Made by a program: the position numbers and the translations under genes. The notes below the pieces were generated by a model. It did not search any database, had not been told where the DNA came from, and was given only the letters and a program-made list of their open reading frames with translations. This document shows positions 3,934 through 25,223 of a stretch of DNA of 64,000 bases, piece by piece. This stretch comes from a virus: IMG/VR virus record IMGVR_UViG_3300031707_000008, positions 1 to 64,000 of that record; one strand, given 5' to 3'. The first letter of the stretch is position 1. Every line of letters begins with the position of its first letter.

Positions 3934-3962
3934 ATTTCATAAATAATATCCGATTTTATCAG

Positions 3963-4421: not shown

Positions 4422-4446
4422 GTGAGGTCGATCGGTTTACGTTGCT

Positions 4447-4987: not shown

Positions 4988-5008
4988 TCTTTGTCCTCCT
5001 TCATATTA

Positions 5009-5037
5009 ATTATATGATAGTACGGGAAGACAATCAA
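5009..5037 (-). promoter_or_regulatory. Sigma-70-type promoter
   Basis: On the minus strand, TTGATT (rc of 5032-5037), 17 nt, then TATAAT (rc of 5009-5014), followed within about 20 nt by the gene at 4987. Identical hexamers and spacing to the promoter at 3599. Confidence 0.75.
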
Positions 5038-5050
5038 GAAAAAAAATCCA

Positions 5051-5622: not shown

Positions 5623-5900
5623 CTTAATAGATGAATAAATCAACTTCACCCGAATTCCGCGGGTAAGGTATCACTTTGGGTAAGTGATAAAATCGGATAT
5701 ATCCGAATCGGGCGGGAGTAGGTGTAAATATCGTTTGTCCGAAGGGATCATACACCTTTCTTGTTTATCCTTTCGAATGTTTCCTTTCATATGATAAACG
5801 TTTCATACATCCATCTAATTCCTTTTATACGTCAGGATCGTTCTGCATTAACACACCTTGTGTTGATGAACAATACTTTTTAATAAAGGGTGTGTCACTT

Positions 5901-6198
5901 CATTCTCGTCCGAATTTATCGTCCGGAATGAAGTTGCGTAATCATTCTCGTCCGAATTTATCGTCCGAGATTGAAGTTGCGTAATCATTCTCGTCCGAAT
6001 TTATCGTCCGAGATTGAAGTTGCGTAATCATTCTCGTCCGAATTTATCGTCCGAGATTGAAGTTGCGTAATCATTCTCGTCCGAATTTATCGTCCGGAAT
6101 GAAGTTGCGTAATCATTCTCGTCCGAATTTATCGTCCGGAATGAAGTTGCGTAATCATTCTCGTCCGAATTTATCGTCCGAGATTGAAGTTGTGTACC
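5901..6198. repeat. Seven tandem 42/43 bp repeats
   Basis: Units start at 5901, 5943, 5986, 6029, 6072, 6114 and 6156. Each holds two direct copies of TCGTCCG spaced by AATTTA. The 42-bp type ends CCGGAATGAAG and the 43-bp type CCGAGATTGAAG; the order is 42, 43, 43, 43, 42, 42, 43. In both types the flanks can pair (CATTC with GAATG; TCATTCTC with GAGATTGA), so each unit could fold or bind a dimer. There are no spacers, so this is not a CRISPR array. It resembles a partition or origin repeat. Confidence 0.9.
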
Positions 6199-6960
6199 TT
6201 CTCAATCACATTGAGAAGGAATGATAGTCCTACATGATAGGACTGTCTGTGATGTTCTTAAATAGTTTATGTTTGGGAGGCTTCTTGGGGATGTGTACTT
6301 CCTTTCTGTTCTTCTCTTCTCCCTCTGCTTCACATACAACTTCTCAAATAACTCTTCTGCTCCTCCTATAGTAACCAAGGGTACCAACCCTGTACGCTTT
6401 GATAACGTTCGTATTCTTCTCTCCTATACATGTTAAGTATCATCACAACAACAACAACTTAACCCAAAGGTGTAGTGATTATAGAAGTCCTTTGTTGGTG
6501 AATGGTTCAAGAAGTATTGCAACGTAACAAGGAGACGAGTAACGTTTGAAACGTTCACTTCTTTCAAAACATGATACCGGTTCATACACTTGCTGGGTGC
6601 ATGGCATGCATGGTTGGGGTGAGTACTTCAACAATTCAAAACAGTTCCGGTACATGGGTTCGTTTTGATTGAGGTACACTTGATGGGTGGAGCATTACTT
6701 AATAATGTTTACATTCATATGAGTCCGATCGTGGGGTGGTGGTGGACTCCAATTAAATGTAACTTGTATTGCACTCAACAATAAATGTACAGGCCTGGGG
6801 TGTTGTCGGATGCAAAGAGAACGTCAACAACAACCCTGCGGGGGGTGAAACATTTCATGAGTATACGTAAAACAGCATGCGGGGTAGGGCCGCCAGTGGG
6901 CGCCCGGGTGAAAAATAATGGTGTATAATTTGGGAAATCGCGCCTGAATCTCGTATATTT
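6195..6960. ncRNA. Second candidate structured RNA region
   Basis: Multiple short inverted repeats follow one another: CCTTCTCAAT/ATTGAGAAGG with a CAC loop, AGTCCTA/TAGGACT, AGGGT/ACCCT around ACCA, GTTAAGT/ACTTAAC enclosing a CAACAACAACAA loop, CCAAAGG with CCTTTG, AACGTT/AACGTT, TGCATG/CATGCA, a distant TACCGG/CCGGTA pair, and GAGTCC/GGACTC. No reading frame is supported. The composition resembles the candidate at 1560-2640. Strand and class are unknown. Confidence 0.3.
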
Positions 6961-6980
6961 CTTTTGAGCGGATAGATTAC

Positions 6981-7000
6981 TTGGTTGTTTACACAACCAA
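6981..7000. promoter_or_regulatory. Palindromic operator-like site
   Basis: TTGGTTGT and ACAACCAA form an 8-bp inverted repeat with a TTAC centre just upstream of the gene at 7022. A TATAAT lies at 6921-6926 but has no clear -35 partner. Confidence 0.4.
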
Positions 7001-7021
7001 AAAATTATGAGAGGAGGTTTC

Positions 7022-7213
7022 GTGTCAAACGTAAAATTGGGTTGGGCGGTTAACGTTATTCTCCTTTTCGTGGCACTCTTTACGCAGGCGCATTCTTGCC
7101 CTATCGAGAACACGCCACTGGGAGAATACATCACTGCCTTCGCGGCTTTTGTGAACTTGGGAATTTTCGTTATCTTGTGGATGCGAAAAGGTTCCAGTTT
7201 CTGGAAGACGTAA
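7022..7213 (+). CDS. Small membrane protein, 63 aa
   Basis: The GTG at 7022 is preceded by GAGAGGAGG; an ATG at 7007 lies within that ribosome site and is less likely. Two hydrophobic segments are clear (VNVILLFVALFT, about residues 10-24, and ITAFAAFVNLGIFVILWM, about residues 38-55), joined by a short polar loop with one Cys (HSCPIENTPLGE), and a basic tail follows. It is the first rightward gene and may have a role at the host membrane in early infection. No family recognised. Confidence 0.6.
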   Translation: MSNVKLGWAVNVILLFVALFTQAHSCPIENTPLGEYITAFAAFVNLGIFVILWMRKGSSFWKT

Positions 7214-7224
7214 GGTCGTTATAA

Positions 7225-7265
7225 AGTAACGAGTGACGCAGATTTCGTTCGCGTCACTCGTTACT
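7225..7265. promoter_or_regulatory. 15-bp inverted repeat (hairpin or operator)
   Basis: AGTAACGAGTGACGC at 7225-7239 pairs perfectly with 7251-7265 around 11 nt. It follows the stop of the small membrane gene, so it may act as a terminator, but no T-run follows. It is succeeded 18 bp later by another perfect inverted repeat with the same 11-nt loop length. Confidence 0.7.
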
Positions 7266-7282
7266 CAACATCATTGATGATG

Positions 7283-7327
7283 GATACAAATAAGGTTGTG
7301 ATGAAATTTTACAACCTTATTTGTATC
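7283..7327. promoter_or_regulatory. 17-bp inverted repeat before HTH gene
   Basis: GATACAAATAAGGTTGT at 7283-7299 pairs perfectly with 7311-7327 around 11 nt. It ends 23 nt before the ATG of the helix-turn-helix gene, fitting an autoregulatory operator or a leader hairpin. Confidence 0.7.
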
Positions 7328-7350
7328 AAGATGGGACTTTGGAAAAGACC

Positions 7351-7650
7351 ATGTCAGACTTGAAAAAGGAATTTCTGGACGAAGTAATGGATAGTAAGGA
7401 AGTTGCCGAGTTCTTGAAGATGCATGTAAAGACGGTGTGTCGTCTCGCGAAAATGGGGTGCATTCCAGCGTGGAAGTTTCGTGGTGTATGGCGTTATAGT
7501 AGGACATGTCTTGTTGCTTTCTTGCAGGGTAAACCCCCCAACGCCATCGTCACATATCTGGACAGCACGGGGACAAAGCACCGTCAACACTTGACAGTTC
7601 CCGGCCCACCCAAAAACGACCCCGCTTTTACTCACACACAGGACCGATGA
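7351..7650 (+). CDS. Helix-turn-helix protein, excisionase/MerR-like
   Basis: The ATG at 7351 follows GGAAAAG; an upstream in-frame TTG at 7321 lies inside the inverted repeat and is less likely. Residues about 12-55 (DSKEVAEFLKMHVKTVCRLAKMG..AWKFRGVWRYSRTCLVAFLQ) match the HTH_17/excisionase DNA-binding domain: helix, turn, recognition helix, then a Trp-containing beta wing. The C-terminal 40 residues are polar and probably disordered. The gene is preceded by two long inverted repeats, so it may regulate itself. It overlaps the next small gene by ATGA. Confidence 0.75.
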   Translation: MSDLKKEFLDEVMDSKEVAEFLKMHVKTVCRLAKMGCIPAWKFRGVWRYSRTCLVAFLQGKPPNAIVTYLDSTGTKHRQHLTVPGPPKNDPAFTHTQDR

Positions 7651-7751
7651 ACATGACTAATAAGGTTCTCCCCTTCGTCTTCTACATTCTAGGAAGCGTA
7701 TGCTTCCCCGCGGGGTCAATATTATCGATCCTTCTAATGAAGAAAGGGTAA
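7647..7751 (+). CDS. Very small membrane protein, 34 aa
   Basis: The ATG at 7647 overlaps the previous stop (ATGA), suggesting translational coupling; a second in-frame ATG is at 7653. The product is almost one hydrophobic segment (FVFYILGSVCFPAGSILSILL) between a basic start and a KKG end. It would be a single- or hairpin-spanning inner-membrane peptide. No family can be assigned at this length. Confidence 0.45.
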   Translation: MNMTNKVLPFVFYILGSVCFPAGSILSILLMKKG

Positions 7752-7779
7752 TGAGCATTAACTAAAGTTGGTGCAAACC

Positions 7780-8160
7780 ATGATAGAAATCTTTGTATTC
7801 GGAAGCAATTTACGTGGAATCCATAGCGCAGGTGCAGCACTTACCGCACTCCAACAACATGGAGCAAAGTATGGCATAGGCGAAGGAAGAACGGGAAATT
7901 CATACGCCTTACCAACGATGGATCATTCTCTATATCCTTTGTCACTTACACGAATTGCATTCTACATCAATAGATTCAAGGATTACGCAAGAAATAATCC
8001 TGCGGAAACGTTCATGGTAACACGCATTGGGTGCGGGTACTGCGGGAAGACCAACGAGGAAATAGCACTTTTGTTCCGGAATTCTCCTGATAATTGTGAA
8101 TTCGATATCAAGTGGGAGCCCTTTCTAGAGCTTACCGCAAGATTTTGGGGGACGTACTGA
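7780..8160 (+). CDS. A1S_2505-like phage non-structural protein
   Basis: A 126-residue protein starting MIEIFVFGSNLRGIHSAGAA, followed by GRTGNSYALPT and FMVTRIGCGYCGKTNEEIA. These match the conserved blocks of the phage A1S_2505 family (FGSNL.G.HGAGAA, GNSYAIPT, VT.IGCG.AG). The fold has been likened to macro-type or nucleotide-binding proteins; the biochemical role is not established. ATG 7780 is used; GTG 7771 and TTG 7768 are in frame. The next gene overlaps its stop (TGATG). Confidence 0.75.
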   Translation: MIEIFVFGSNLRGIHSAGAALTALQQHGAKYGIGEGRTGNSYALPTMDHSLYPLSLTRIAFYINRFKDYARNNPAETFMVTRIGCGYCGKTNEEIALLFRNSPDNCEFDIKWEPFLELTARFWGTY

Positions 8161-8363
8161 TGACATACGCGATTATGTATAACGAAAAACACCCTGATTG
8201 TGGGTTGTTTAACTTGGTTCGAAAAGTTGACCTGCAAACTACGTGGTGGATTTGTCCTGAGTGTCATACGTTTTGCTTTCGTGATGGACAAACATGTGAT
8301 TGTTTAGTGTCGATATTTAATCTTGAGATGTTTGACACTAGAGAAACGTTAAGAGTATGTTAA
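8160..8363 (+). CDS. Small cysteine-rich protein, probable zinc ribbon
   Basis: A 67-residue protein whose ATG (8160) overlaps the stop of the gene before. WWICPECHTFCFRDGQTCDC supplies a CPEC knuckle and a second Cys pair, consistent with one bound zinc. The rest is short and partly hydrophobic. Coupled translation with its neighbour suggests a shared process, but the function is unknown. Confidence 0.55.
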   Translation: MTYAIMYNEKHPDCGLFNLVRKVDLQTTWWICPECHTFCFRDGQTCDCLVSIFNLEMFDTRETLRVC

Positions 8364-9229
8364 GTATTGTGATGGCACATTTCAAACGAGAAACTCTTCT
8401 TGATCGAACGTTATGGGCGTATCGGCATTATCATTCTCTAGATACGCTACGTGATGTTGAGTTTATCATAATTGATGATGATGGTGGAAAGAGTCAACAT
8501 TTTTGGAATGTGATTGCGGAACATGGAAAGGCACTCAATATTTTTGCTACCGGAATAGATGAAGGAACTTATTGTCCTTGTATTCCGTTGAACTTCGCAA
8601 TAAAGCAAGCGCGTGGGAATGTTGTCGTAATAACGAATCCTGAATGTTTGCCCTTCACGAAAGACTTGCTGGACCAAATTAAAAAAAGAATAACAAATAA
8701 TATGTACCTCTCGTGTGCGTGTTATTCTTTGCCCTACGATGTTACGCAAGCTATGTATATGGTTGATTGGAAAACTAAGAAATATGCACTTACGTTTTTA
8801 GAATCAATACCAATTTACGATAACATGGCAGATGGTGACGGTATACCCGGCTGGTATAACCATAGTGAATATCGTCCAGTAAATTTGCATTGGTGTACGG
8901 CAATTTCTAGAGAATTCCTTGTTGCTATGGGTGCGTTTGATGAAGATTTTGCAATGGGGTTTGCTTACGAAGATAATGATTTTGCACGACGCATTGCAAA
9001 TTCTGGTTTGCGGATCCAATTCGCGAATGACTTACGCGTTTTCCATCAACATCATTACTTGCCTACATATTATACGCCAGAGAGACATGCACATATTGAA
9101 AGAAATCGCGTGGTATGTGAAAATAAACGCTATGCGGGTTTCGTTCGAAATCTAGGCAAAAAGTGGGGAACGTTACACAATCTACCTAAGCGAGTAGAGC
9201 GTTGGGAAGATGGGAAATTATGTCAATAA
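8357..9229 (+). CDS. Family 2-like glycosyltransferase
   Basis: A 290-residue GT-A fold protein. The N-terminal strand SIVMAHFKRETLLDRTL and the acidic FIIIDDDGG motif (about residues 35-43) match nucleotide-sugar binding regions of GT2 enzymes, as does NPECLPF near residue 95 in the usual DxD neighbourhood. GAFDEDFAMGFAYEDNDFARRI, about residues 195-215, is the typical acceptor-site ED motif. It opens a sugar/methyl modification cluster (8357-14536). Acceptor unknown; phage DNA, virion proteins or host surface glycans are all possible. Confidence 0.85.
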   Translation: MLSIVMAHFKRETLLDRTLWAYRHYHSLDTLRDVEFIIIDDDGGKSQHFWNVIAEHGKALNIFATGIDEGTYCPCIPLNFAIKQARGNVVVITNPECLPFTKDLLDQIKKRITNNMYLSCACYSLPYDVTQAMYMVDWKTKKYALTFLESIPIYDNMADGDGIPGWYNHSEYRPVNLHWCTAISREFLVAMGAFDEDFAMGFAYEDNDFARRIANSGLRIQFANDLRVFHQHHYLPTYYTPERHAHIERNRVVCENKRYAGFVRNLGKKWGTLHNLPKRVERWEDGKLCQ

Positions 9230-10497
9230 AAGTTCTTGTTGCAAATCCACCGTGGCATTCTCCTGGGAAATGGGGTTTACGTGCTGGTGGACGTTGGTCG
9301 TATATGGCACCTTATCCTTGTATGACCAATCCACCGTTCTTCATGCTTTTCGCATTAACGTATGCGAGGAGACACTTCAGGAAAGACGAGGTTGAATTTT
9401 TCTTTCATGACTCTATTCCGAGTCGCGAGAGTTATGAAGCATTCTATGAGTACATGTTTGAGTTTAATCCTGACGTGTTGATAATTGAGCCCGCGACGGC
9501 GTCGTTCTATCACGACATGGAAGTGTGTCGTGAATTGCATAAACGACTTCCAAAAATGAAGATTATCCTTACAGGGGCACACGTGAGTGCTTTGGCCAGT
9601 GAAATCATGAACGAGTATGGAGATAAATCTCCGTATGACATATGGGCGATCTTCAAAGGTGAGTACGAACACACTTTAGTTAACTTCTTGCGAAAAGAGT
9701 TGGTGGTGGGGGAAAAGTCAATGGGGGTATGGGAATACGATCTCATGCCGCCTGAAGAAGTCTTAAACTCCCCCTTCGCCTGGAGAGGAATACCATCTGG
9801 CGATATTGCAAGGTATTGCGACTATCCCATTGAACCTCAACGTACTTACACGTTGTGGGGATCTCGTGGTTGCCCGTATCGTTGCATTTTTTGCCAATGG
9901 CCGGCGGTCATGTATAACACCAAGTATAGACCGCGTTCTCCTGCTAACATTCTTGCGGATATTGATGATGCCTTTCGATTGTGGCCACAATTGAATAGTG
10001 TGTACTTCGATGACGACACATTCAATATTGGAGAAGGTCGTTTGTATGAGATATCCGAAGGATTGATGAAGAGAAACATTCGTTGGGGGGCAATGTGTCG
10101 ACCCGATACGTGTTCAATAGATACGTGGCGTTTCATGGTGAAGTGTGGACTGACGAAAGTCAAGTTAGGAATTGAATCCGGCAGTCCGGAAATGATTAAG
10201 TGTTGCAAGAAACGACTTGACCTTGGGGTTGCTCGCGAAACAATTCGTGTTTTGAAGAGTTGTGGGGTTAAAGTCCACTTGACGTTTACTGAAGGTCTTC
10301 CTGGAGAGAAGGCAGAAGACTTAACCCTGTCGCATCAATTCCTTGAAGAGACGCGACCCGATACTTGGCAATGGAGTTATTGCGTCCCATTCCCAGGGAC
10401 ACCATTTTGGAAGCAGTATCGTGAACAATTGAAGGGGATTGATTTTGCATTATACGATGGGACGCGTTTCAAAATCGCGGATATGGTAAAGTTATGA
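9220..10497 (+). CDS. B12-binding-like radical SAM protein
   Basis: A 425-residue protein. The N-terminus (LVANPPW..., then DVLIIEPATASFYHDMEV and IILTGAHVSAL) resembles a cobalamin-binding Rossmann domain. The central SRGCPYRCIFCQWP gives the CxxxCxxC radical SAM cluster motif (about residue 215). YFDDDTFNI, KLGIESGSPEM and HLTFTEGLPGE follow the usual TIM-barrel order. Enzymes of this class methylate or rearrange unactivated carbons. Its place between glycosyltransferase and methyltransferase-like genes suggests modification of a sugar or base. Confidence 0.85.
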   Translation: MSIKVLVANPPWHSPGKWGLRAGGRWSYMAPYPCMTNPPFFMLFALTYARRHFRKDEVEFFFHDSIPSRESYEAFYEYMFEFNPDVLIIEPATASFYHDMEVCRELHKRLPKMKIILTGAHVSALASEIMNEYGDKSPYDIWAIFKGEYEHTLVNFLRKELVVGEKSMGVWEYDLMPPEEVLNSPFAWRGIPSGDIARYCDYPIEPQRTYTLWGSRGCPYRCIFCQWPAVMYNTKYRPRSPANILADIDDAFRLWPQLNSVYFDDDTFNIGEGRLYEISEGLMKRNIRWGAMCRPDTCSIDTWRFMVKCGLTKVKLGIESGSPEMIKCCKKRLDLGVARETIRVLKSCGVKVHLTFTEGLPGEKAEDLTLSHQFLEETRPDTWQWSYCVPFPGTPFWKQYREQLKGIDFALYDGTRFKIADMVKL

Positions 10498-10859
10498 GAG
10501 CGATCATTGCGGGAAGTCGTAACATAAAGGACTTAAAAGTTGTAGAGGAAGCCATACGTGAATCTAGATTCGTCATTGATGAAGTTGTTTCCGGTGGGGC
10601 TTCGGGTGTTGATAGATTAGGCGAGCAATGGGCGACTCGCTACTCAAAACCCATAATAAGATTTCTTGCTAATTGGAACAAATTTGGTCGAGGTGCAGGT
10701 TTCGTTCGAAATGCGGAGATGGCAAGATATGGGGATGTGTTAATCGCCATTTGGGATGGCAAAAGTCCCGGAACGAAAAATATGATTAAAGTTATGCAGA
10801 AATATGGCAAGCCCGTACATGTAAAGGACTTGTCGGAAGTGTTATCTCACAAAGGTTGA
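10494..10859 (+). CDS. YspA/DUF2493-type SLOG-fold protein
   Basis: A 121-residue protein. MRAIIAGSRNIKD, EVVSGGASGVDRLGEQWA, ANWNKFGRGAGFVRNAEMA and DVLIAIWDGKSPGTKNMI are the successive signature blocks of the DUF2493/YspA branch of the SLOG superfamily, which binds nucleotides or their derivatives. It is one of three proteins of related nucleotide-binding fold in the window (also 14658 and 48110). It overlaps the upstream radical SAM gene by four bases. Confidence 0.85.
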   Translation: MRAIIAGSRNIKDLKVVEEAIRESRFVIDEVVSGGASGVDRLGEQWATRYSKPIIRFLANWNKFGRGAGFVRNAEMARYGDVLIAIWDGKSPGTKNMIKVMQKYGKPVHVKDLSEVLSHKG

Positions 10860-10863
10860 AATT

Positions 10864-11457
10864 ATGAAACAACATACGTATCGTGAAGTCTTAACGATGT
10901 TCCCGCAACTTGTTGTGGAGGAACAACATGGTTCTTTCTTCGTTTCTATAGTGTCTGAATGGTTAATGCGTCTTCGCCCAAGACTTGTTTTTGATGTGGG
11001 GATTGGTGTAGAAGGTTTTTGGGGGAGTTATATGCGAAAGTTGGGAATTCCTTGTGTGGGTATAGAGATTTGGGATAAGTACTTGACGCAACCCGCAATG
11101 CATGATTTTTACGATGGGATTATTGTTGGGGATATAGTCAATTTAGCTTCATCACTTTATGGTGATGTCATTATATTGGGGAACGTTCTTGAACATCTGA
11201 CGCAGGAAACAGCGTTGTCTGTGACGCGTTTATTGGCGGGGCATTGTAGGTGGTTAATTATTATGTCACCTTTAGGATTTCACGAACAAGCAGAGACAGA
11301 TGATTGTCCATACTCAAAGCATGTGTGTGGGTTTAGTCCAGAACATTTTGATTTCCTTTCGATTGTTGAATTGATACTTTTGAAGGAACCAGATGTTGTA
11401 GGTAGCGAATGCACTAAACCTTCGTGGTTCGCATTGCTTGCGAAGGGGAGCATGTGA
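10864..11457 (+). CDS. Class I SAM methyltransferase-like protein
   Basis: A 197-residue protein with a Rossmann-like core: RLVFDVGIGVEGFWGSYMRKLGIPCVGIEIW resembles motif I and the acidic end of strand 2, and GDVIILGNVLEHLTQETAL resembles motif IV with the common EHL. It lacks a long substrate domain. It could be an active small-molecule or sugar methyltransferase. The next gene starts inside its stop (ATGTGATG). Confidence 0.65.
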   Translation: MKQHTYREVLTMFPQLVVEEQHGSFFVSIVSEWLMRLRPRLVFDVGIGVEGFWGSYMRKLGIPCVGIEIWDKYLTQPAMHDFYDGIIVGDIVNLASSLYGDVIILGNVLEHLTQETALSVTRLLAGHCRWLIIMSPLGFHEQAETDDCPYSKHVCGFSPEHFDFLSIVELILLKEPDVVGSECTKPSWFALLAKGSM

Positions 11458-12239
11458 TGCCCTTTACGAATGAAGTTAATATACTTCTTAAGCAATTCGA
11501 GTTTGATTGGTCTGGAAGTTATAAACACATTCGAGACGCTATTTATTTAATAACAAGATTGGTTGAAGCGCGAACGTATTTGGAGGTTGGTGCACCGAAA
11601 GACACATACTCGATACAATGTTTTAACGCACTTCCTGTGAAGATGAAGTTAACTATTGACAGGGACTTGAATGGAAGTGAAAATATTAACCCCACACAAA
11701 AATTGCAAATATCGAGTGACGACTTCTTTGGTTTACATGCTTTGAAGTATTTTCCTGAAGGTATAGATGTTGTTTTTATTGATGGGGATCATTCTTATAT
11801 TCAGTCGCGCCAAGATATAATAAACGCGTTGCAGTTTCTCACATCCCCCGGCGTGATACTCGTTCATGATTGTTTGCCGTCGAGTGAATATGCAACTGGG
11901 AAACAAACGTTTGAGGAACACCTTCAGTATTGTTCTTCACTTGAGGAATACACTCAAGCGGTTGCGATTTGGGTAGGTGAAGTATGGAAATCGATTGTGT
12001 ATTTTAGAAGTTTTCGTTCTGACGTGTATACGCGTGTCTTGAATTTTCCATTTATGGGGTTGGGTGTACTTTTCCCTACAAACATGTTTCAGAATACACA
12101 GTTGAATCTTGACTTGGCAACTATTGAAAACTTGCAATGGAAAGACGTTGAAAAAGATTTGAAGAAGTTCATTGGTTTAACGGAAATGCCTTACTTCACA
12201 AGAGTTTTGAGTAACATAACTCAGAGGCGGGTTTCATGA
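11457..12239 (+). CDS. Class I SAM-dependent methyltransferase (type 24-like)
   Basis: A 260-residue protein. TYLEVGAPKDTYSIQCF corresponds to motif I, DVVFIDGDHSYIQSRQDIINAL to the FIDGDHxY motif of the Methyltransf_24 group, and GVILVHDCLPSS to the following strand. The group often methylates sugars in surface-polysaccharide or nucleoside pathways. It fits the neighbouring glycosyltransferases and epimerase. ATG 11457 is chosen for its GGGGAG site and coupling with the preceding stop. Confidence 0.8.
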   Translation: MPFTNEVNILLKQFEFDWSGSYKHIRDAIYLITRLVEARTYLEVGAPKDTYSIQCFNALPVKMKLTIDRDLNGSENINPTQKLQISSDDFFGLHALKYFPEGIDVVFIDGDHSYIQSRQDIINALQFLTSPGVILVHDCLPSSEYATGKQTFEEHLQYCSSLEEYTQAVAIWVGEVWKSIVYFRSFRSDVYTRVLNFPFMGLGVLFPTNMFQNTQLNLDLATIENLQWKDVEKDLKKFIGLTEMPYFTRVLSNITQRRVS

Positions 12240-12484
12240 CACCATCTTGCGGCATTAAAGTGAAGAGAATATTTCATCACGATGCGTGGGTTTTTGTAAA
12301 AGAAGAACTTGAGGGGAGAAGTTGGGATTTTTGTCTTTGCGCAATTTGCGCAAATTTGACACCAGAAGATGTTTTACACAATTGCCAAATCGCAAATGCA
12401 TTATATAGATTTTGCGTTGAGAACAACCTTGTTGCACCAATCTTTGAATGTCCTGTTTTTAGGGAGAAGGTCGAGAAGAAATGA
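12236..12484 (+). CDS. Small cysteine-containing hypothetical protein
   Basis: An 82-residue protein (ATGA overlap with the methyltransferase stop). FCLCAICANLTPEDVLHNCQIANALYRFC contains four Cys in a short stretch, which could bind metal. The C-terminus is basic. The gene is wedged between a methyltransferase and a glycosyltransferase with overlaps at both ends, so it probably belongs to that pathway. No family recognised. Confidence 0.65.
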   Translation: MTPSCGIKVKRIFHHDAWVFVKEELEGRSWDFCLCAICANLTPEDVLHNCQIANALYRFCVENNLVAPIFECPVFREKVEKK

Positions 12485-13455
12485 CGACGATTTGTGCAGA
12501 AATTCAAGTCAAGGACGCCGACTGGATTCTTGGGGAGTGTTTAAGACATTTAAGTGACTTCGTCGATGAAGTCGTTGCCTTTGACGATGGATCTTCCGAC
12601 TTAACTCTTCCTTTATTACTATCATGGCCGTGCGTGAAGAAAATCTTCCGCAAACCCACTTCCGGTGTTTGGACCGAAAGTGAGAATCGTGCATTGCTTT
12701 TAGATATGGCAAAGACTTCTGGAAAGGAGTGGATTCTTTTCATTGACAGTGACGAAATTCTTGAGGCACGCGCTGCGAGAGGAATTAAGACGTTTTTACA
12801 AGAACGCCCGGAGATTTCAACTTGGAAGTGTGGAGAAATTAACTTGTGGAATAGTACGCATACGTATAGATGTGACGATTGGTTTGGTTTTGGGAAAGAC
12901 AACTTTCCACAGTTCGTGCGTTTTTTCCGAAATGATCCCGACTTGGTGTATCGACATACAGAAGGTTTGCATGGGAATCTTGTTCCAGTTAACGTAAAGT
13001 ACCCTGTCTTGAATAGTGGCTTCAATATTTTGCATTTTGCCTTTTTTGATCCAATTCGTCGCCAACGCAAAGCTGCATATTATCGTGAACGTGACGTTTC
13101 GTTGAGAAACGCCTCGGAAGATGATCCTTTACTGATTATGAATGTGAAGAGGTTGGTGTCAACTCCAAAACTCCCTCTCGTTGAAGTTGATACGTCTTGG
13201 TGGACACACGGGCAAGTTGAACTTCCATTGTTGGATTGTGACGCTCCAGTTGGACCATTCATTCAACACGATAGCGATACACGAAATCGTGTATGGGGGA
13301 AGGCCTTGTGGGGTAACTGGGATAAGAGTGGGAAAGTTTGGTTTGGAACACCTACGTGTGAGTCTAGAGAAGTTACGCGTCACGAACTTGTGTTACTTTA
13401 TTTCGAGGCGAAAAGAAGCGGAAAAGATATTTGTGAACTTTTCCAAAGGAGTTGA
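12481..13455 (+). CDS. Family 2-like glycosyltransferase
   Basis: A 324-residue GT-A protein. Residues 1-100 give the GT2 pattern: ICAEIQVKDADWILGECLRHL, VDEVVAFDDGSSDLT (D-D-G-S) and WILFIDSDEIL (DSD for metal and sugar nucleotide). The rest (WNSTHTYRCDDWFGFGK..., HTEGLHGNL) resembles the middle domain of the 800-residue glycosyltransferase at 22821, suggesting a common origin. The acceptor is unknown. Confidence 0.85.
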   Translation: MTTICAEIQVKDADWILGECLRHLSDFVDEVVAFDDGSSDLTLPLLLSWPCVKKIFRKPTSGVWTESENRALLLDMAKTSGKEWILFIDSDEILEARAARGIKTFLQERPEISTWKCGEINLWNSTHTYRCDDWFGFGKDNFPQFVRFFRNDPDLVYRHTEGLHGNLVPVNVKYPVLNSGFNILHFAFFDPIRRQRKAAYYRERDVSLRNASEDDPLLIMNVKRLVSTPKLPLVEVDTSWWTHGQVELPLLDCDAPVGPFIQHDSDTRNRVWGKALWGNWDKSGKVWFGTPTCESREVTRHELVLLYFEAKRSGKDICELFQRS

Positions 13456-13456
13456 C

Positions 13457-14536
13457 ATGCCGTCTCCAAAATTGAGAATTCTCGTCACAGGTGATACCGG
13501 AACAATTGGTTGGTATCTTGTTCGTGAATTAAGACGCCGCGGGCATGAAGTTTTTGGTTGTTCGCGAAGACACGTTCCCGATGAGAAACATCTTCGTGCC
13601 GATGTGCGAGATTACCGTCAACTTGAACGGGTTTTTAGACAAGTTGAACCTACTGTGGTGTATCATCTCGCGGCTGAGTTTGGGCGTCATAATGGTGACA
13701 TGTTTTACGAACAATGTTGGGATACAAACGTGATTGGTGTTGAGAATGTTGCACTTCTATGCGCCGAATTTGGTGCGACTTTGATTTTTGCTTCTTCTAG
13801 TGAGGCGTATGGTGAAATAGATTTAGGTGACGACTTTATTCGTGAAGAGTATTTAAGTACACAACCTATTCACCACCTCAATAGTTACGCGATGTCGAAA
13901 TGGTGTGGTGAACACATTATTTTGAATGCTCAACGCAAATTCGATCTTCAGGCAGTTCGTTTGCGTTTCTTCAACGTTTACGGTCCGGGTGAGTTCTATC
14001 ATCCTTATCGCTCTGTTGTGTGTTTATTTTGTTATCGCGCTTTACATGGATTGCCTTACGAAGTGTATGACGGTTACCATAGAGTGTTTCAATTTGTTGG
14101 TGACTTCATTCCTACGGTAGCAAACGTTTGTGAATGTATTGATCCTCCAACAAGTCTCGCAATCAATATCGGCGGAGAAGAATACTGCTCCGTTGATTCA
14201 ATGTCTGCCAAAGTGCTTTCACTCGTGGGGGTGACTGAAGGGGACTTGCATATTCGCCATATAGCAAAAGACGAACATAACGTTGTCAATAAACGTCCCG
14301 ACAACACTTTAGCAAAAGGACTTTTGTCTCACAATCCTTCAACCCCCCTGTCTATCGGGTTAAAGGCCACGCTCGCTTGGATGACGAATATCTACGCGAA
14401 CACAATTGTACATCCACCGGCATTCTTGAAAGAGTGTACTTGCGAAGGTGAATATCAGTTACCCGTTCTTCAAGAAACAGTTGCGAAGAATACAAACTCC
14501 GAAACGAAGGAGACAGTAGACAATGTCGGTTTTTGA
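13457..14536 (+). CDS. NAD-dependent epimerase/dehydratase
   Basis: A 359-residue extended SDR protein. RILVTGDTGTIGWYLV carries the glycine-rich NAD(P) motif, VYHLAAEFG follows, then FASSSEAYGE, and SYAMSKWCGE is the catalytic YxxxK. LRFFNVYGPGE is typical of UDP-sugar 4-epimerases and dehydratases. The start ATG at 13457 follows AAAGGAGTTGAC; earlier in-frame sequence lies within the glycosyltransferase gene. It probably supplies a modified nucleotide sugar for the phage's glycosyltransferases. Confidence 0.9.
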   Translation: MPSPKLRILVTGDTGTIGWYLVRELRRRGHEVFGCSRRHVPDEKHLRADVRDYRQLERVFRQVEPTVVYHLAAEFGRHNGDMFYEQCWDTNVIGVENVALLCAEFGATLIFASSSEAYGEIDLGDDFIREEYLSTQPIHHLNSYAMSKWCGEHIILNAQRKFDLQAVRLRFFNVYGPGEFYHPYRSVVCLFCYRALHGLPYEVYDGYHRVFQFVGDFIPTVANVCECIDPPTSLAINIGGEEYCSVDSMSAKVLSLVGVTEGDLHIRHIAKDEHNVVNKRPDNTLAKGLLSHNPSTPLSIGLKATLAWMTNIYANTIVHPPAFLKECTCEGEYQLPVLQETVAKNTNSETKETVDNVGF

Positions 14537-17295: not shown

Positions 17296-17319
17296 TGTTT
17301 GTTAACTAGGAGGTGTATC

Positions 17320-18975
17320 ATGCCTTACCCCAACGAGCATGCGTGTAGGTTGCGGCAACCTGGGGCATTCTTGCGGAATACTTTCGCAAGAATGTCACGT
17401 AAATCGGCTGAGTTTCATAAGGTGTATTCTGTAATCTTAGCGAAACTCATTAAGGATGGTATTCGAGGACCCTTGACGGAGCAAGCCTATCGTTACAAAA
17501 AGTTAGTTTGGGCGGTTTCGCAAGCACGCTCGCATTGCAAGAGTCATAAAGGAATTTCTTTTGAACCCGCTAGTGAGTCGAAGTACTTCGTTGAATCCCG
17601 CATGAAGGAATCTGTGGATGGTTGTTGTGGTGGAGAGGAGCGATGCATGCAAGAACCTGACTTTTACTTTGCCCGCCCATCTATTACAGAACTTGCGGGG
17701 TCATTAATTTTCATCGATGAATTTCTTGAAGGCGAGTACGAGGCGTTGCATAATGGGATTGTGGCAATACGCAATCGGTTGGATGAGGATCTTCTTCTTG
17801 GGAATTTTCCGAATCCCATTTTAGAAGAGATGAAGGAGGCAGCTTCTGTTGGTAGATTGGAACCTGGGCAAGCTTCATTTATAGCGTCAGCGTCTTGTTT
17901 ATCTCGGGTAGGAGGAAAAAATACGTTTTCGGGCGTAGAGGGTGCACTCAAGTATTTCGTTGACACATTCCCAAATACGCGTATCCTTGCGGAGAAGATG
18001 ATAATGGGTGTTGGATGTCTTCTTATCAAGTCGCATGACAGTGTTCGAATTATATCTTCTCAAGGAAGAGATTTAACCAGTAAGTTGCCATCTTTGGTAC
18101 AAGCCGTACTTGCGTTGCCAGATAAGTATGTTACGTTGCATGGAATATTGGAGAAGTGGGAGGAAACTCAAACGGGATTGCGCCCAGCAAGCAAGTTGGA
18201 ATTGATGAATTACTTATTCTTCGCGCAAGACGTTGGAGATAAGACGATTGTTTGCAACGTTGTAGATGTTGTTTTTGCTATGGAGGATGTACACAACCTT
18301 CCTTTGACAGCACGCAAGACTTTACTTCGTAGTATCTTAATAACTTCTTCAGCGTGTCAAGAATTGAAGTATTCAGAAAAAGCGATTCCGACATTGACAA
18401 AGAAGTTAGTATTGTTGCCATACACAATTGAAATGTGTGCTGGATCGATCTCGCACGCGGTAGAGTTAAATGGAATCTTGCCGGGGTCGCTTGGGGTTAT
18501 ACTCAAATGCGCGAGTTCAACGTATCCACTTTCTGGAGTTTGTTCTGCTTGGGCAGAACTTCCTCGTGGGGAAACTTGCAATTGCGTAATTTGGCAGAAA
18601 GATGTTGTACCTGGCGGTTTATTCCAGTATCATTTGGGTTTAGGTTGTACTGAGGAAGAGTCCTATGAGGCGCTAAATGTAGTTTCTCTTCAAAAGGAGG
18701 ATGTTGTCAATATTGGTTTATCTTCTCCTGTGAGTTTTTCTTTTGGGGAGGGAGAGGTCGTTCGCGTTAGTTTTGAGAAGATGAACGTTTTTGCCTGCGA
18801 AGGGATTTACCGTATAATACTATCGAATGCTAAGATTTTAAGCCAATTCGATGGGGATATAGTGTCTACGGTTGCTGAAGTTCGAGAACAAGTTCGGGAG
18901 AAGAATTTGTTAATCGAAAGTGACTTTACGCAGAGGCATTTGGAACATCTTTTACGAGAAAGTGAAAGGCGGTGA
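17320..18975 (+). CDS. Head-region fusion with degenerate DNA ligase-like domain
   Basis: A 551-residue protein; ATG 17320 follows AGGAGGTGTATC. The start, MPYPNEHACRLRQPGAF, and then SQARSHCKSHKGISFEPAS match an N-terminal module seen in phage prohead-associated (XkdF-like) proteins. From about residue 220, RILAEKMIMGVG, SSQGRDLT, LHGILEKW and GVILKCASSTYPLSG align in order with ATP-dependent ligase motifs I, III, IIIa and V, but the nucleophilic Lys, the motif I Asp and Arg and the IIIa Asp-Gly-Glu residues are replaced. It therefore looks like a pseudoenzyme. It lies just before the prohead protease, so a capsid assembly role is inferred. Confidence 0.55.
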   Translation: MPYPNEHACRLRQPGAFLRNTFARMSRKSAEFHKVYSVILAKLIKDGIRGPLTEQAYRYKKLVWAVSQARSHCKSHKGISFEPASESKYFVESRMKESVDGCCGGEERCMQEPDFYFARPSITELAGSLIFIDEFLEGEYEALHNGIVAIRNRLDEDLLLGNFPNPILEEMKEAASVGRLEPGQASFIASASCLSRVGGKNTFSGVEGALKYFVDTFPNTRILAEKMIMGVGCLLIKSHDSVRIISSQGRDLTSKLPSLVQAVLALPDKYVTLHGILEKWEETQTGLRPASKLELMNYLFFAQDVGDKTIVCNVVDVVFAMEDVHNLPLTARKTLLRSILITSSACQELKYSEKAIPTLTKKLVLLPYTIEMCAGSISHAVELNGILPGSLGVILKCASSTYPLSGVCSAWAELPRGETCNCVIWQKDVVPGGLFQYHLGLGCTEEESYEALNVVSLQKEDVVNIGLSSPVSFSFGEGEVVRVSFEKMNVFACEGIYRIILSNAKILSQFDGDIVSTVAEVREQVREKNLLIESDFTQRHLEHLLRESERR

Positions 18976-18979: not shown

Positions 18980-20293
18980 TTGAAAGAAGAGGGTGTTTTT
19001 ATTATACAGACAGACGTCCCATTCGATTTTCTCATTAGTCCAACGAAAGTCGCTGCTGAGACGGATGCATCTACGGGAGAAGAGTTGTGGATTTTAGAGG
19101 CGTTGGCGTGTACGTCGGACGTCGATCTTGGGGATGATGTCATTCTCCCAATCGCAATTAAGAATTCCGAAAGCGATTTGCTCGAGTATAGTACCGTCCT
19201 CGAGAATCATGACACTGATAAGCGCGTGGGCAAGATAATTGACTCAAGGGCAATTGATGTTGGTTTGTGGGTCAAAATCATGATTTCGAAGACCGTTCCT
19301 GCTGTGTGGCAACAGGTTCAAGAAGGTGTTTTGAGTAAACTTTCTATTCGTGGAAGAATTCTTGAAGTTATTAAGCATTCCGTGAATGGAAAGCCAGTAC
19401 GTGGTATTCAAAAGATGAAACTTGTTGAGACTTCTCTTGTGAGTGTTCCTATGAATGTGAAGGCAAGAGCACTACGGTGGTACGTATCGAAAGCTCTCGA
19501 CTCCGTCATGTGGGATAAAATAACTCCTGAAGGAGGTGAAAATATGCAAAGGAATCCTCGAGATGAAACGACACCCCTCCCTGCGGAGATACTCAAGGAA
19601 GCGGTGGTAGTCGAGAATTTGATTGTTCTTCCTGCGGTTGAGCAAAAGTCACTACCTATCGCTGGTGAAAGAAACGTTGAGATTCCTCCTGAGGTGAATC
19701 TTGCTGCACGACCAGATGTAGAAACTCGTAGTGTATTGCACAAAGAGACACCGGATCCCAATGACGCACCCGCTGAGGAAGAGACACCGGAAGAGGTACT
19801 AATTGAGAAAGTGATAAAAGTGCCTCTTGTTGAAAGTGTAGTAGAAGTTACTCCTTCTGAGATAGTGAAGGAGAAAGTGCTTCCTGCGGCAGAAGAGTCG
19901 GCTAAAGCGATTGCTCAAACGATTAACGTTTTGAAGGATGCTTTACCACACGTGATTGACAAGACTTCTCTTCCAGGAGAAGGTCTTTCTGTGGAAATGG
20001 CGAAGATAGCGAAAGACGTCGTGGATTTGCAAAACATTCTTGTTGCGGTCCAACAGGGTTTGGCGTTGGCTGAAAGCGTTGAGACCTTGAAGCAAGAGAT
20101 TGTTGGCTTGCGCAATCGTGTTGAGCAAACTCCTCTTCGTAAGGGTATTGACACCAAGCAACTTCCGAATGCACTCCCCACCCGCGATGCAATTTTGAAG
20201 GAATTGCGTGCATCAGAAGAGTTTAAACTATCAACCGCTCCCGAGCAACTTCGCATGGTGTTGGAAGTAATTGCTGCGACCATTTCAGCGTAA
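18980..20293 (+). CDS. Prohead protease fused to scaffold domain
   Basis: A 437-residue protein starting at TTG 18980 (GGCGGTGACGCG before it). Residues about 20-185 match the HK97-type prohead protease: a substrate-clasp strand (EALACTSDVDLGDD), catalytic His in LENHDTDK and Ser in LSKLSIRGRI, then LVETSLVSVPMN. From about residue 189 the sequence is acidic, Pro/Glu-rich and then coiled-coil, typical of scaffold. The protease would cleave scaffold and itself during head maturation. A nested start at 19544 allows separate scaffold. Confidence 0.85.
   Translation: MKEEGVFIIQTDVPFDFLISPTKVAAETDASTGEELWILEALACTSDVDLGDDVILPIAIKNSESDLLEYSTVLENHDTDKRVGKIIDSRAIDVGLWVKIMISKTVPAVWQQVQEGVLSKLSIRGRILEVIKHSVNGKPVRGIQKMKLVETSLVSVPMNVKARALRWYVSKALDSVMWDKITPEGGENMQRNPRDETTPLPAEILKEAVVVENLIVLPAVEQKSLPIAGERNVEIPPEVNLAARPDVETRSVLHKETPDPNDAPAEEETPEEVLIEKVIKVPLVESVVEVTPSEIVKEKVLPAAEESAKAIAQTINVLKDALPHVIDKTSLPGEGLSVEMAKIAKDVVDLQNILVAVQQGLALAESVETLKQEIVGLRNRVEQTPLRKGIDTKQLPNALPTRDAILKELRASEEFKLSTAPEQLRMVLEVIAATISA
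19544..20293 (+). CDS. Nested scaffolding protein (internal in-frame start)
   Basis: Inside the protease gene, GAAGGAGGTGAAAAT precedes an in-frame ATG at 19544, one of the strongest ribosome sites of the region. The resulting 249-residue product is the acidic, coiled-coil-rich C-terminal part (LQNILVAVQQGLALAESVETLKQEI). This copies the known arrangement of phage lambda C/Nu3, where excess scaffold is made from within the protease gene. The internal start is inferred from sequence only. Confidence 0.7.
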   Translation: MQRNPRDETTPLPAEILKEAVVVENLIVLPAVEQKSLPIAGERNVEIPPEVNLAARPDVETRSVLHKETPDPNDAPAEEETPEEVLIEKVIKVPLVESVVEVTPSEIVKEKVLPAAEESAKAIAQTINVLKDALPHVIDKTSLPGEGLSVEMAKIAKDVVDLQNILVAVQQGLALAESVETLKQEIVGLRNRVEQTPLRKGIDTKQLPNALPTRDAILKELRASEEFKLSTAPEQLRMVLEVIAATISA

Positions 20294-20355
20294 GTTTCTT
20301 TCGTATAAAGAAGTCGCTTGTGTTTTTTTCTTTTTGAATTAAGGAGGTGAAAAAA

Positions 20356-21318
20356 ATGGAAAGACCCGACATTCTAAAGGCATTGTCTGGAGTCGTTGAG
20401 AAGGGAATTGCCGCGACTAATATCGCGTCAATTCTGGAGCAACCTGAGGTTGATGCCGTTGTAGCGCATCTGATTGATTATCAGAACCCGTTTCGGCAGA
20501 ATTTGCCGCGTAGGCCTGGTTCTGGTGCGGCTTACTTGTCAAACACTCGTACTGCGGGCAATACACCCGCGCAGTTTGTTGCTGACACGGATACGCTAAT
20601 GGAGGATACCGGAACGTATGGACGCATACCTTGGACGTACAAGACTATTGCGACGCGTGGAAAGATCACGCGTAAGGCGCAAAAGATTGGGATGTCTTTG
20701 TTGGACATCATGGCGGAAGAGTTAGAAGGGAAATCGGAAGACTTCCGCAACTACGAAGAGTGGGCCATTATCTATGGTAACTCCTCCACAGCGACACAAT
20801 TCGATGGACTCGACAAGATTTTCGTTGTGACGACTCCGGGAGCGCAATGCGTTGCAATGACGACAACGTCTGGCGGTCAAGCACTTTCGTTGACGAAGCT
20901 TGATCAGGCAATTGATAAGTGTGCACTACCTCCGAACATGCTTGTGATGTCTCGGAGGACGCGGAGGCAGTTGAGAACCCTTCTTCAGGCAAGTCAACGC
21001 TTTGTAAATACAGTAGAGGTGGTTGGTGGATTCAAGGTGTTGTCGTATGACGATATCCCGGTCTTTGTTTCGACGCAGATTTTGGATACGTATACGTTCA
21101 ACGGTACTGCCGATTCTGCATCTACAGGTGGAACTTGCACGAATCTTTACGCGTTGAATACCGCGGATTGCTTCATGTCGGTTTTAACGGATGTGACCGT
21201 GGAGCCGTTGGCGAAGGATTCTTCGCAATACCAACAGTTTGACATTTACGAGGATGTAGCTCTCGTAATGAAGAACATAAAGAAGCATGTGTGCTTAATC
21301 GGTATCAAGGATTCGTAA
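20356..21318 (+). CDS. Major capsid protein (HK97 fold)
   Basis: A 320-residue protein; ATG 20356 has the site AAGGAGGTGAAAAA. It follows the protease/scaffold gene directly. AQFVADTDTLMEDTGTYGRIPWTYKTIATRGKITRKAQKIGMSLLDIMAEE corresponds to the E-loop/spine-helix region, and the C-terminal VVGGFKVLSYDDIPVFVSTQI to A-domain strands. The order and the strong terminator downstream support high-level expression. No long N-terminal delta domain is present because the scaffold is separate. Confidence 0.85.
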   Translation: MERPDILKALSGVVEKGIAATNIASILEQPEVDAVVAHLIDYQNPFRQNLPRRPGSGAAYLSNTRTAGNTPAQFVADTDTLMEDTGTYGRIPWTYKTIATRGKITRKAQKIGMSLLDIMAEELEGKSEDFRNYEEWAIIYGNSSTATQFDGLDKIFVVTTPGAQCVAMTTTSGGQALSLTKLDQAIDKCALPPNMLVMSRRTRRQLRTLLQASQRFVNTVEVVGGFKVLSYDDIPVFVSTQILDTYTFNGTADSASTGGTCTNLYALNTADCFMSVLTDVTVEPLAKDSSQYQQFDIYEDVALVMKNIKKHVCLIGIKDS

Positions 21319-22212: not shown

Positions 22213-22821
22213 GTGGCAGGAAATTTATTTTTCAACCAAGTTTTTAGTTTGTTGCGCTTTTCTGAAGTGGCGTATACACATGCTTTAGATTCTATGGTGT
22301 TGAACGTTCCCACTCTCACTTTTGAAAGGACTCCCTTCAAGATTTGGGTGGAACTTTCTGGAAGTGTAGCGGGAAATACATTTGATCTTGGTATCGTTGG
22401 ATTTGATGTCAATGCTGGGGTGACGTATGCTACTTTGGAGTTTACGGCGATTGGATTTCAATTGACACCTTGCGAATTCGGTACGTTAACTGCAGTGGCA
22501 ACCGGAGTGGTAGAACCCGCAGTTACAGTTACTTTATCGGGTTCGAATGATATGCACGAACGAATTCGCGTAAAAACTACGCAGTCAATTCTGGGGTATA
22601 TAGCGGAGAGAGGAGGTTTTTTTAGCAACCAACCTTATGGCAGTATTGTCCAAGGGGATGCTGCACTTTACGTGGAGTCTTTGAATGTCATCCAGGTTGG
22701 TGATATTATACTTTTTGGCGCGAAACAGTACTTGATTGAAGACGTTGTTGAAAAGTCAAGTTTGACTGGACAACTGAATTATGTTGTTGGCACGCTTCGC
22801 CATCAAGAAGGGAAACCATAA
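22213..22821 (+). CDS. Virion structural protein, probable head-tail joining
   Basis: A 202-residue protein with a GTG start at 22213 (AGGAGCGTAATG some 10 nt upstream). It is beta-rich (LNVPTLTFERTPFKIWVELSGSVAGNTFDLGIVGFDV), ending VVGTLRHQEGKP. It occupies the place of the head-closure or neck protein between the adaptor and tail-completion genes. No specific family match is visible. Its stop overlaps the start of the large glycosyltransferase gene. Confidence 0.6.
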   Translation: MAGNLFFNQVFSLLRFSEVAYTHALDSMVLNVPTLTFERTPFKIWVELSGSVAGNTFDLGIVGFDVNAGVTYATLEFTAIGFQLTPCEFGTLTAVATGVVEPAVTVTLSGSNDMHERIRVKTTQSILGYIAERGGFFSNQPYGSIVQGDAALYVESLNVIQVGDIILFGAKQYLIEDVVEKSSLTGQLNYVVGTLRHQEGKP

Positions 22822-25223
22822 TGCGAGAGAAAGTCTCTATCGTAACGGTGTTGTTCAACGAAGTTGAACACACAATTCGTTTCGTTGAATCGTTGCGCAA
22901 GTACACGAGAGAATATGAGTTGATCGTAATTGACAATTGCAGTACAGATGGGACATGTGGTTTTTTAACAGAACTTGCAAGCAAAGGTGAAATTCCTATT
23001 CGAGTTTATCATAATGACACCAACTTGGGATATGTGAAGGGGATAAATCAAGGAATTAGGTTGGCGGAATTTTCTCTTATTTGCATAGTTAATAATGATA
23101 TTGTTTTCTCTCCAGGTTGGTTGGATAAGTTGCGTTGGGGATTGCTTACTGGGGTGAAGAAAGTGAAAACCCTGACGGGGCCTGTTGGTGCTGTCGGACC
23201 TACTGCTGACAATGTATCTGGAATGCAGGTTGTTCAGTTAAATCCTATACCGCGTGAATGGAACGATACTACAATGCGTTCCGTGAATGCGGAAGTCAGA
23301 AAGGGCAATCTCATAGAAACTGGATTCCTTGTTGGTTTTTGCATGTTGATAAGGCGTGAAGTTTTCGATTCGATTGGTTTGTTTGATGAAGAGAATTTTT
23401 CCAATGGTGGTTTTGACGATAACGATTTTTGCTTGCGTATGTTGCATGCTGGGTGGAAGATGTTGATAGTAGGAAATTGCTTTTTGCATCATGTGGGCGG
23501 GGCAACGATACGACATTTTCCTGAATTGAAGCGTGGTACGTCTAGTCGTTTTCAATTTTACAAGAAGTGGCATAATCCCAATCCTACGCGTGTGATTGCA
23601 GCATACCGGGTTAAAGATGGTGGGGAATTGTTCGCGAAGAGTTTGGCAAACGTGAGTGAGTTTGTTGATGGAATCGTCGTGTTTGATGATAACTCAACTG
23701 ATAACACTAGTGCAGTAGCACGAGCGTGTCCTAAAGTTCTTGAAGTTAAACGCACAAGTCGTACGACTTTTGATGAGAGAATGGATCGCAATGACGCACT
23801 CGAATTGGCACGAATGCATGGTGCGGAATGGATCCTTGCAATTGATTCCGACGAGCTTTTTGGACCGGAAATGACTTACGCGCGTATGCAGAATTTGACA
23901 CATCCAGTCAATCCGCAATACTTGAGTTTTGGTTTTTACTGGTACAATTTCTGGAATTCGTTGACGCATTACCGTACTGATGGCATTTGGGGACAAATGC
24001 GTGGAAGTCGTTTGTTTAAGGTGCTACCCAATCAACGAATTGTTCTTGGATCTACTCAAGGATTGCATTGTGGAAATATTCCTTACTTCGCCCCAACGAA
24101 TGTGATGCAAACTTGTATTCGTATCAAACATTACGGATATGTTTCTCCGCAACAGCGTTTGGATAAGTATAAATTTTACAGCAACGTAGATCAAGACTTG
24201 CGTCCAGAATTGGTGGGTGCGGAAAATTACAATCATCTTATTCATGACTCGGATATGCACATAAGACGTTGGCTCGACACGAATGGCATTTCTCTTGCCA
24301 TTATGGGGAAGAATGAAGCAGATGATTTGACTGCCGTTCTTGAGTTTATGCGATATCTCGTGGATGAAGTGATATACCTTGACACGGGGAGTTCTGATGC
24401 ATCACTGGATGTGGCGCGTGCATTGGGCGCACGCGTATTCGAAAAAGAATGGGTTGATGACTTTTCCGAGATGCGCAACTATTTGATTTCGCAGTCGACT
24501 CAACGCTGGATTTTTCATATGGATCCAGACGAGAGAATGTCCCCCGTTGACGCATTCAAGTTGCGTCACGTCATTGATGATACCGACACGGTTGCGTTTT
24601 TTGTGCCATTAATCAATCACCACCCGGATGGACGTCAAACGATGAACGAGAACGTGAGAATCTTCAGAAATTTGCCTATTATGAAGTATACTGGAAGAGT
24701 GCATGAAACATTCGATTTGGCATTGCGCCAGTTGCGAAATCAGGCCCCAATGCGTATGGCGCCTTTTGCAATCAACCATTTTGGATACATGAAACCGAAA
24801 CCGCGTGTGCAAGAAAAGTTGGACTTGTACGAACGCTTGAATATGGCACAATACAAAGAGTCTCCTGGGGATCCTCGCCCGTGTTTAAATCTTGCATTGC
24901 AACGATTAAACGATGGGAATATCGAGGAAGGTTCTGCATTACTTTGGGAAGCGTTGAAGCGTGATCCTAACTACTATCAGGCAGCGAAAGAATTGGCTTG
25001 CGTCAACGTCGAACAAGCAAAGGGTTTGTTGCGTTTGACAGTTAGCAAGCTGCCACCCAACTTCCCTTTGAGAGTTTGGGCGGAGAAATCTCTTGCCGCG
25101 ATGGATGAACACTTCCCGAATAGAGTTTATGCTGGTGAACCGAAGAAGTATAAAAAGCGTAGCAAGAATACGTTTGCAGGAAAATCTGAAGAACTGAAGA
25201 AGTTGGTGGAAGAAGTTGCCTGA
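22821..25223 (+). CDS. Three-domain family 2 glycosyltransferase, 800 aa
   Basis: Three GT-A units in one chain. Unit 1 (about 1-250): VSIVTVLFNEVEHTIRFVESL, IVIDNCSTDGT, IVNNDIVFSPGW (NND). Unit 2 (about 250-485): VIAAYRVKDGGELFAKSL, GIVVFDDNSTDNT, WILAIDSDELF. Unit 3 (about 490-690): ISLAIMGKNEADDL, YLDTGSSDAS, WIFHMDPDERMS. A TPR-like helical tail (PGDPRPCLNLALQRLNDGNIEEGSALLWEALKRDPNYYQAAKEL) and a Lys-rich end follow. It lies between head-tail joining genes, overlapping both, so glycosylation of virion proteins is a plausible role. Confidence 0.85.
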   Translation: MREKVSIVTVLFNEVEHTIRFVESLRKYTREYELIVIDNCSTDGTCGFLTELASKGEIPIRVYHNDTNLGYVKGINQGIRLAEFSLICIVNNDIVFSPGWLDKLRWGLLTGVKKVKTLTGPVGAVGPTADNVSGMQVVQLNPIPREWNDTTMRSVNAEVRKGNLIETGFLVGFCMLIRREVFDSIGLFDEENFSNGGFDDNDFCLRMLHAGWKMLIVGNCFLHHVGGATIRHFPELKRGTSSRFQFYKKWHNPNPTRVIAAYRVKDGGELFAKSLANVSEFVDGIVVFDDNSTDNTSAVARACPKVLEVKRTSRTTFDERMDRNDALELARMHGAEWILAIDSDELFGPEMTYARMQNLTHPVNPQYLSFGFYWYNFWNSLTHYRTDGIWGQMRGSRLFKVLPNQRIVLGSTQGLHCGNIPYFAPTNVMQTCIRIKHYGYVSPQQRLDKYKFYSNVDQDLRPELVGAENYNHLIHDSDMHIRRWLDTNGISLAIMGKNEADDLTAVLEFMRYLVDEVIYLDTGSSDASLDVARALGARVFEKEWVDDFSEMRNYLISQSTQRWIFHMDPDERMSPVDAFKLRHVIDDTDTVAFFVPLINHHPDGRQTMNENVRIFRNLPIMKYTGRVHETFDLALRQLRNQAPMRMAPFAINHFGYMKPKPRVQEKLDLYERLNMAQYKESPGDPRPCLNLALQRLNDGNIEEGSALLWEALKRDPNYYQAAKELACVNVEQAKGLLRLTVSKLPPNFPLRVWAEKSLAAMDEHFPNRVYAGEPKKYKKRSKNTFAGKSEELKKLVEEVA

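Follow-up and report, generated by a model that had tools for sequence, protein, structure and literature searches.

A gene lying directly upstream of the prohead protease gene of a virus encodes a protein (the window protein) that, to judge from profile searches and a predicted fold, descends with near certainty from DNA ligases. Its catalytic residues are replaced, and it is very probably devoid of canonical ligase activity. There is about an even chance that the window protein is a non-catalytic, prohead-resident, dead member of a family of LigD-like ligases encoded in viral head modules. The finding joins DNA end-joining enzymes with capsid maturation, two rarely linked things, and the dead copy is best understood beside its intact ligase-phosphoesterase relatives, which many uncultured viruses encode next to their portal and capsid genes. 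Pseudoenzymes and head-packaged multidomain proteins are both known kinds; searches of the open-licence literature found no description of a prohead module joined to a dead DNA ligase, nor of the intact ligase-phosphoesterase family in capsid gene clusters.

Gene neighborhood and N-terminal module

The window, i.e. the whole stretch of DNA that was analyzed (64,000 nucleotides), is part of a linear virus record of 74,567 bases. The pseudo-ligase reading frame is uninterrupted, from an ATG at 17320 to a TGA stop at 18973-18975 (Table 1). As the earlier note had it, the adjacent gene encodes a prohead protease, which matches Peptidase_S78 (E 2.2e-7) and head maturation protease PHROGs; its inferred TTG start is in frame and separated by 4 nt from the pseudo-ligase stop. 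The major capsid protein gene is next, followed by a head-tail adaptor and then by tail genes, so that the pseudo-ligase gene is placed immediately 5' of the protease and capsid genes. Terminase and portal are encoded at the far end of the record, at about 69.5-73.6 kb. No second ligase-family domain was found in the 74.6-kb record, no match to a LigD-type phosphoesterase in the window or the remainder of the record, and no close relatives of the virus in searches with the capsid protein and the terminase.

Table 1. Features of the pseudo-ligase gene and its neighbors, in window coordinates
Feature	Residues	Position	Strand	Basis and remarks
Ribosome-binding site AGGAGG, 6 nt 5' of ATG		17308..17313	+	Direct sequence reading
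Module + pseudo-ligase gene (P0001)	551 aa	17320..18975 incl. stop	+	ORF read
MPYPNEHACRL module	1-88	17320..17583	+	Relatives in prohead proteases and capsid proteins; AlphaFold pLDDT 89
Linker, ~104 aa	89-192	17584..17895	+	phmmer, no relatives
Degenerate nucleotidyltransferase (adenylation) domain	~193-417	17896..18570	+	Profile, NCBIfam, AlphaFold, fold comparison
Motif I remnant EKMIMG	225-230	17992..18009	+	Alignment; family KxDG: Lys to Met 227, Asp to Met 229
Motif IIIa remnant LHGILEKW	273-280	18136..18159	+	Alignment; Glu to Ile 276
Motif IV remnant SLGVILK	390-396	18487..18507	+	Alignment; Glu to Leu 391, Lys retained
Motif V remnant WAELP	411-415	18550..18564	+	Alignment; Lys to Glu 413
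OB-fold domain	~418-509	18571..18846	+	Profile, AlphaFold, fold comparison
C-terminal helices	~510-551	18847..18972	+	Profile, AlphaFold
Prohead protease (Peptidase_S78)		18980..20293	+	TTG start 18980 inferred
Major capsid protein (SU10_MCP / Phage_capsid)		20347..21318	+	Family match; next gene after protease

The protein begins with a module of the form MPYPNEHACRL...HCKSHKG..FEPA, which the earlier note had linked to head-maturation proteins; it does occur with them, in prohead proteases and capsid proteins. The 80 listed viral relatives (L001-L080) match the window protein only in or near this module, with up to 58% identity to the modules of prohead proteases. The partner domains in 42 longer module proteins, counted with overlap, were Peptidase_S78 (12), Clp (8), S49 (5), Mu-like (5) and XkdF (4), and a few of the 42 have capsid domains behind the module. 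Since the module is found on proteases of different catalytic families, it is independent of the kind of protease, and its partners are best read as pointing to a prohead-targeting or assembly domain. The AlphaFold model of the module matches a viral prohead protease in BFVD. The module prohead proteases and capsid proteins (including BFVD A0A6J5MVR2, 'Prohead protease') have the N-terminal module and the gene cluster in common with the window protein, whose C-terminal part, in contrast, is a dead ligase, the protease being the product of the next gene. No protease match was found behind its module, where the pseudo-ligase stands instead of a protease or capsid domain. Among 50 records with the MPYPNEHA module, a Pfam ligase was present in one, as an ordinary ligase distant from the module. 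The linker gave nothing significant beyond the protein itself in a phmmer search against the fetched ORFs.

No solved structural relative of the module was found at E <=0.001. The top VIA-align row was the BRX domain of RLD2 (6l0v), with the best Z of 4.5 over 52 residues; Pfam BRX matched three of 43 module proteins (best E 3.8e-6), and the only PDB sequence matches of the module from locus L073 were to RLD2 BRX (E 0.68). The resemblance to the plant BRX domain is suggestive only. Nothing relevant on BRX in phages was found in the open-licence literature, partly by narrow queries.

Ligase descent and altered active site

The order of ligase motifs described in the earlier note (AEKMIMGVG, SSQGRDLT, LHGILEKW, GVILK) was recovered, and profile searches with the C-terminal part did not favor a portal or head protein family. 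A 17-member ligase-OB profile of the family, built with the window protein left out, gave it 99.9 bits (E 2.7e-28, residues 222-539); the best of 2,000 shuffled sequences reached 4.6 bits. An ordinary phage ligase (L084) scored 21.7 bits against the same profile, which groups the window protein with the head-module ligases and not with ligases at large. The best curated sequence family was NCBIfam DNA ligase D (TIGR02776), matched by the single sequence at E 2e-5, with 23.6 bits against a cut-off of 373.2. The window protein has the nucleotidyltransferase and OB folds in common with bacterial DNA ligase D (LigD); it differs in having neither the catalytic residues nor the phosphoesterase and polymerase domains.

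Structure prediction likewise gave a ligase fold. The AlphaFold model of residues 190-551 has a pLDDT of 89.7 and a pTM of 0.84, aligns with archaeal, human and T4 DNA ligases across both domains with Z of about 20-23, and matches DNA ligases in Foldseek with E down to 5e-17. The nucleotidyltransferase domain limits were taken from a structural alignment to the Pyrococcus ligase. Because the input alignment of 43 family members included intact ligases, the model supports homology without being independent proof of it; the model plays no part in the profile and shuffle results or in the NCBIfam match. That the ligase resemblance is due to chance or that the fold is a different one is exceedingly improbable: the match to Pfam DNA_ligase_A_M is weak and under the cut-off (E 0.047, 13.8 bits against 26.2), but this reading is refuted by the profile, shuffle, NCBIfam and fold results. 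Close relatives of the ligase part were found neither in viral contigs, queried with the whole protein, nor in genome contigs, queried with the C-terminal part, and a motif search returned distant relatives only.

The amino acid comparison covered 42 aligned relatives, nearly all of them catalytically intact. The family-invariant catalytic positions are altered in the window protein, while structural residues are retained. Specifically, 16 of the 28 columns conserved at 80% or more in the family are kept, mostly Gly, Pro, Tyr, Leu, Ser and Arg. Motif I still has its Gly, motif III its Asp and motif IV its Lys. The loss of the nucleophilic Lys and of the motif I Asp, claimed in the earlier note, therefore holds at residues 227 and 229, but the Gly of the Asp-Gly pair is still present, and even the intact viral relatives do not conserve the Asp of the 'DGE' said to be lost. 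In a ligase, loss of the Lys nucleophile alone abolishes adenylation, and the Glu residues of motifs IIIa and IV together with the motif V Lys are required for adenylation and metal binding. The window protein has the nucleotidyltransferase and OB folds of a ligase enzyme; KxDG with its nucleophilic Lys, Glu in motifs IIIa and IV and Lys in motif V are absent from it.

Ligases of viral head modules

A BLAST search against phage records gave one informative match, the 'ATP-dependent DNA ligase' of the ANMV-1 virus of archaea (AJP62006), which matches the window protein at 26% (database E 0.008, pairwise 9e-9). The ANMV-1 ligase gene adjoins a portal gene; its product keeps KFDG and runs on into a LigD-phosphoesterase-like stretch, HxHGRGKSVHGDL. 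Aligned to ANMV-1 alone, the window protein gave too weak a query for searching, and no sufficiently conserved stretch was available in the full ligase alignment. A degenerate pattern of the phosphoesterase-like stretch, built from hand-written motif variants and used as a search pattern only, led to 69 further viral loci (L086-L154), with proteins of up to about 2,000 residues.

Several family members combine the ligase and LigD-like phosphoesterase with MBL-fold and Dam-methylase domains (for example L091 1360-6831, L110 5847-9641 and L115 6072-11738), and the L088 protein has two ligase domains. Upstream neighbors of the family ligases include Phage_portal (20) and Portal_Mu (6) proteins, other portals and terminases; downstream are Phage_capsid_4 (15), Phage_capsid (13), Mu gpT (5) and S78 protease (6) proteins, the counts being proteins per family with possible overlap. 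Named sources of the intact family include ANMV-1 of archaea, an Aenigmatarchaeota contig and a Planctomycetota contig.

These loci supplied homologues with intact KxDG. The motif I Lys is kept in 54 of the 56 ligase domains that cover it, among 61 different domains, in which motif IIIa Glu (56/57), motif IV Glu (56/57) and motif V Lys (55/55) are also kept. A sub-clade (L139, L143, L146, L147, L151 and L152) has KxNG for KxDG in motif I and retains the remaining catalytic residues. The window protein shares with the head-module ligases the ligase-OB family and the placement in a head gene cluster, whereas in these relatives KxDG and the remaining catalytic residues are present and a LigD-like phosphoesterase domain follows; no MPYPNEHACRL module was found in loci with intact ligases. 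In the window protein the C-terminal helices occupy the position at which the link to the phosphoesterase domain starts in intact relatives. Several queries, some of them narrow, on the ANMV-1 ligase and on ligases in capsid modules found nothing relevant in the open-licence literature.

Two further degenerate members were found. The L073 protein consists of the module and a ligase domain (85 bits to the family profile) whose nucleophile is missing together with Asp of motif I and Lys of motif V; the gene follows those for portal, MuF and Dam methylase and comes immediately before one for a head maturation protease. The third degenerate ligase (L130 9983-11287), which lacks the Lys and the motif IIIa and IV Glu, is encoded between portal and capsid genes, where its gene immediately follows one for an intact ligase-phosphoesterase. 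The tree separates the three, which have long branches (2.99 for the window protein, 2.58 and 1.79 for the other two) against a median of 0.61. A single clade of the two module-fused dead ligases is weakly disfavored (AU test p 0.034, with long branches). Repeated loss of catalysis appears likely, without the matter being settled against a single loss, and the long branch of the window protein would also fit relaxed constraint or decay.

Proposed role and alternatives

The likeliest of the explanations considered is an internal head protein or a binder of DNA ends. The module would carry the window protein into the prohead along with the protease and the capsid protein, and with ligase chemistry given up, the dead nucleotidyltransferase-OB pair would act there as a non-enzymatic internal head protein, be it a DNA binder, a DNA-end binder or a structural part. 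In working ligases this pair closes around duplex DNA. From the module and the gene order, head association is fairly probable; for a DNA-contacting or structural role the chances look evenly balanced, and a role of the dead ligase in capsid assembly is plausible.

Alternatively, the window protein may be injected cargo: its module would deliver it to the head, and after injection with the genome the dead ligase would protect DNA ends or block host end joining by binding either those ends or a partner from host repair. The ligase, phosphoesterase, MBL and Dam-methylase domains of the intact relatives would act on DNA. In PMC9503650, ART and Nudix domains on MuF, portal or head peptidase proteins are proposed to be packaged and injected. 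The head-packaged polyvalent proteins and the MuF-, portal- or peptidase-linked effectors (Iyer et al. 2017, cited there) likewise have an enzyme-type domain on a head module among head genes; the window protein, whose packaging is putative, differs from them in that its domain is a ligase, and a dead one. A dead enzyme is incapable of the ancestral chemistry, however, and a partner ligase or phosphoesterase was not found in the 74.6-kb record, which leaves cargo a somewhat unlikely function for the present protein. It fares better as the ancestral role. Domains for DNA-end processing occur on the intact relatives, whose genes occupy the same genomic position, so that for the ancestor packaged cargo acting on DNA is no worse a candidate than a part in assembly, and the comparison would suggest that DNA ends were once processed by a head-associated or injected protein.

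A decaying remnant of an active ligase, with no present function, is improbable. Both the joint change of all catalytic positions and the long branch would be expected of decay, but the 551-codon frame is open, has a strong ribosome-binding site and is coupled to the protease, the structural residues are retained, and the architecture of module plus dead ligase recurs in a very different virus, L073. Still less probable is a working nucleotidyltransferase with a non-canonical active site. Lys226, one residue before the lost Lys (EKMIMG), might then serve as nucleophile, a shift seen also in an otherwise intact relative (L105, QKVYDG), and motif III Asp and motif IV Lys remain; against this, motifs IIIa and IV have also lost their Glu and motif V its Lys.

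The non-catalytic head protein would also belong to a broader and more doubtful picture, in which many tailed uncultured viruses encode and package a LigD-like end-joining machine in the capsid cluster, while here and at least once more the ligase has died and become a module-tethered part of the capsid interior. If such proteins are packaged, some viruses carry a kit for genome-end repair or circularization inside the capsid. According to PMC7719229, citing Pitcher et al. 2006, infection by the mycobacteriophages Omega and Corndog uses Ku and host LigD; a counterpart encoded by the virus itself and linked to its head would be another kind of solution than this reliance on the host enzyme.

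Several other features of the record were observed. In about 8 kb at its start (1-8300) no ORF exceeds 146 aa; only short ORFs lie there, on both strands, and the GC skew changes. Coding is dense, and on the + strand, over the remainder of the window. Glycosyltransferase and epimerase genes (8357-14536) are located just 5' of the head genes, and the head-tail connector genes enclose a gene (22821-25223) whose 800-aa product reads as a multi-domain family 2 glycosyltransferase. The product of 39917-41602 is a GlmS-type aminotransferase (PHROG 10428, E 1.5e-107); a QueC-like queuosine biosynthesis profile matches it as well, and the gene is possibly one of DNA modification. Outside the window, at about 66025-67080 of the record (L085 2126-3181), a secreted-type protein has a C-terminus that by eye resembles a type IX secretion sorting domain; such a domain would suggest that the host belongs to a Bacteroidota-related group.
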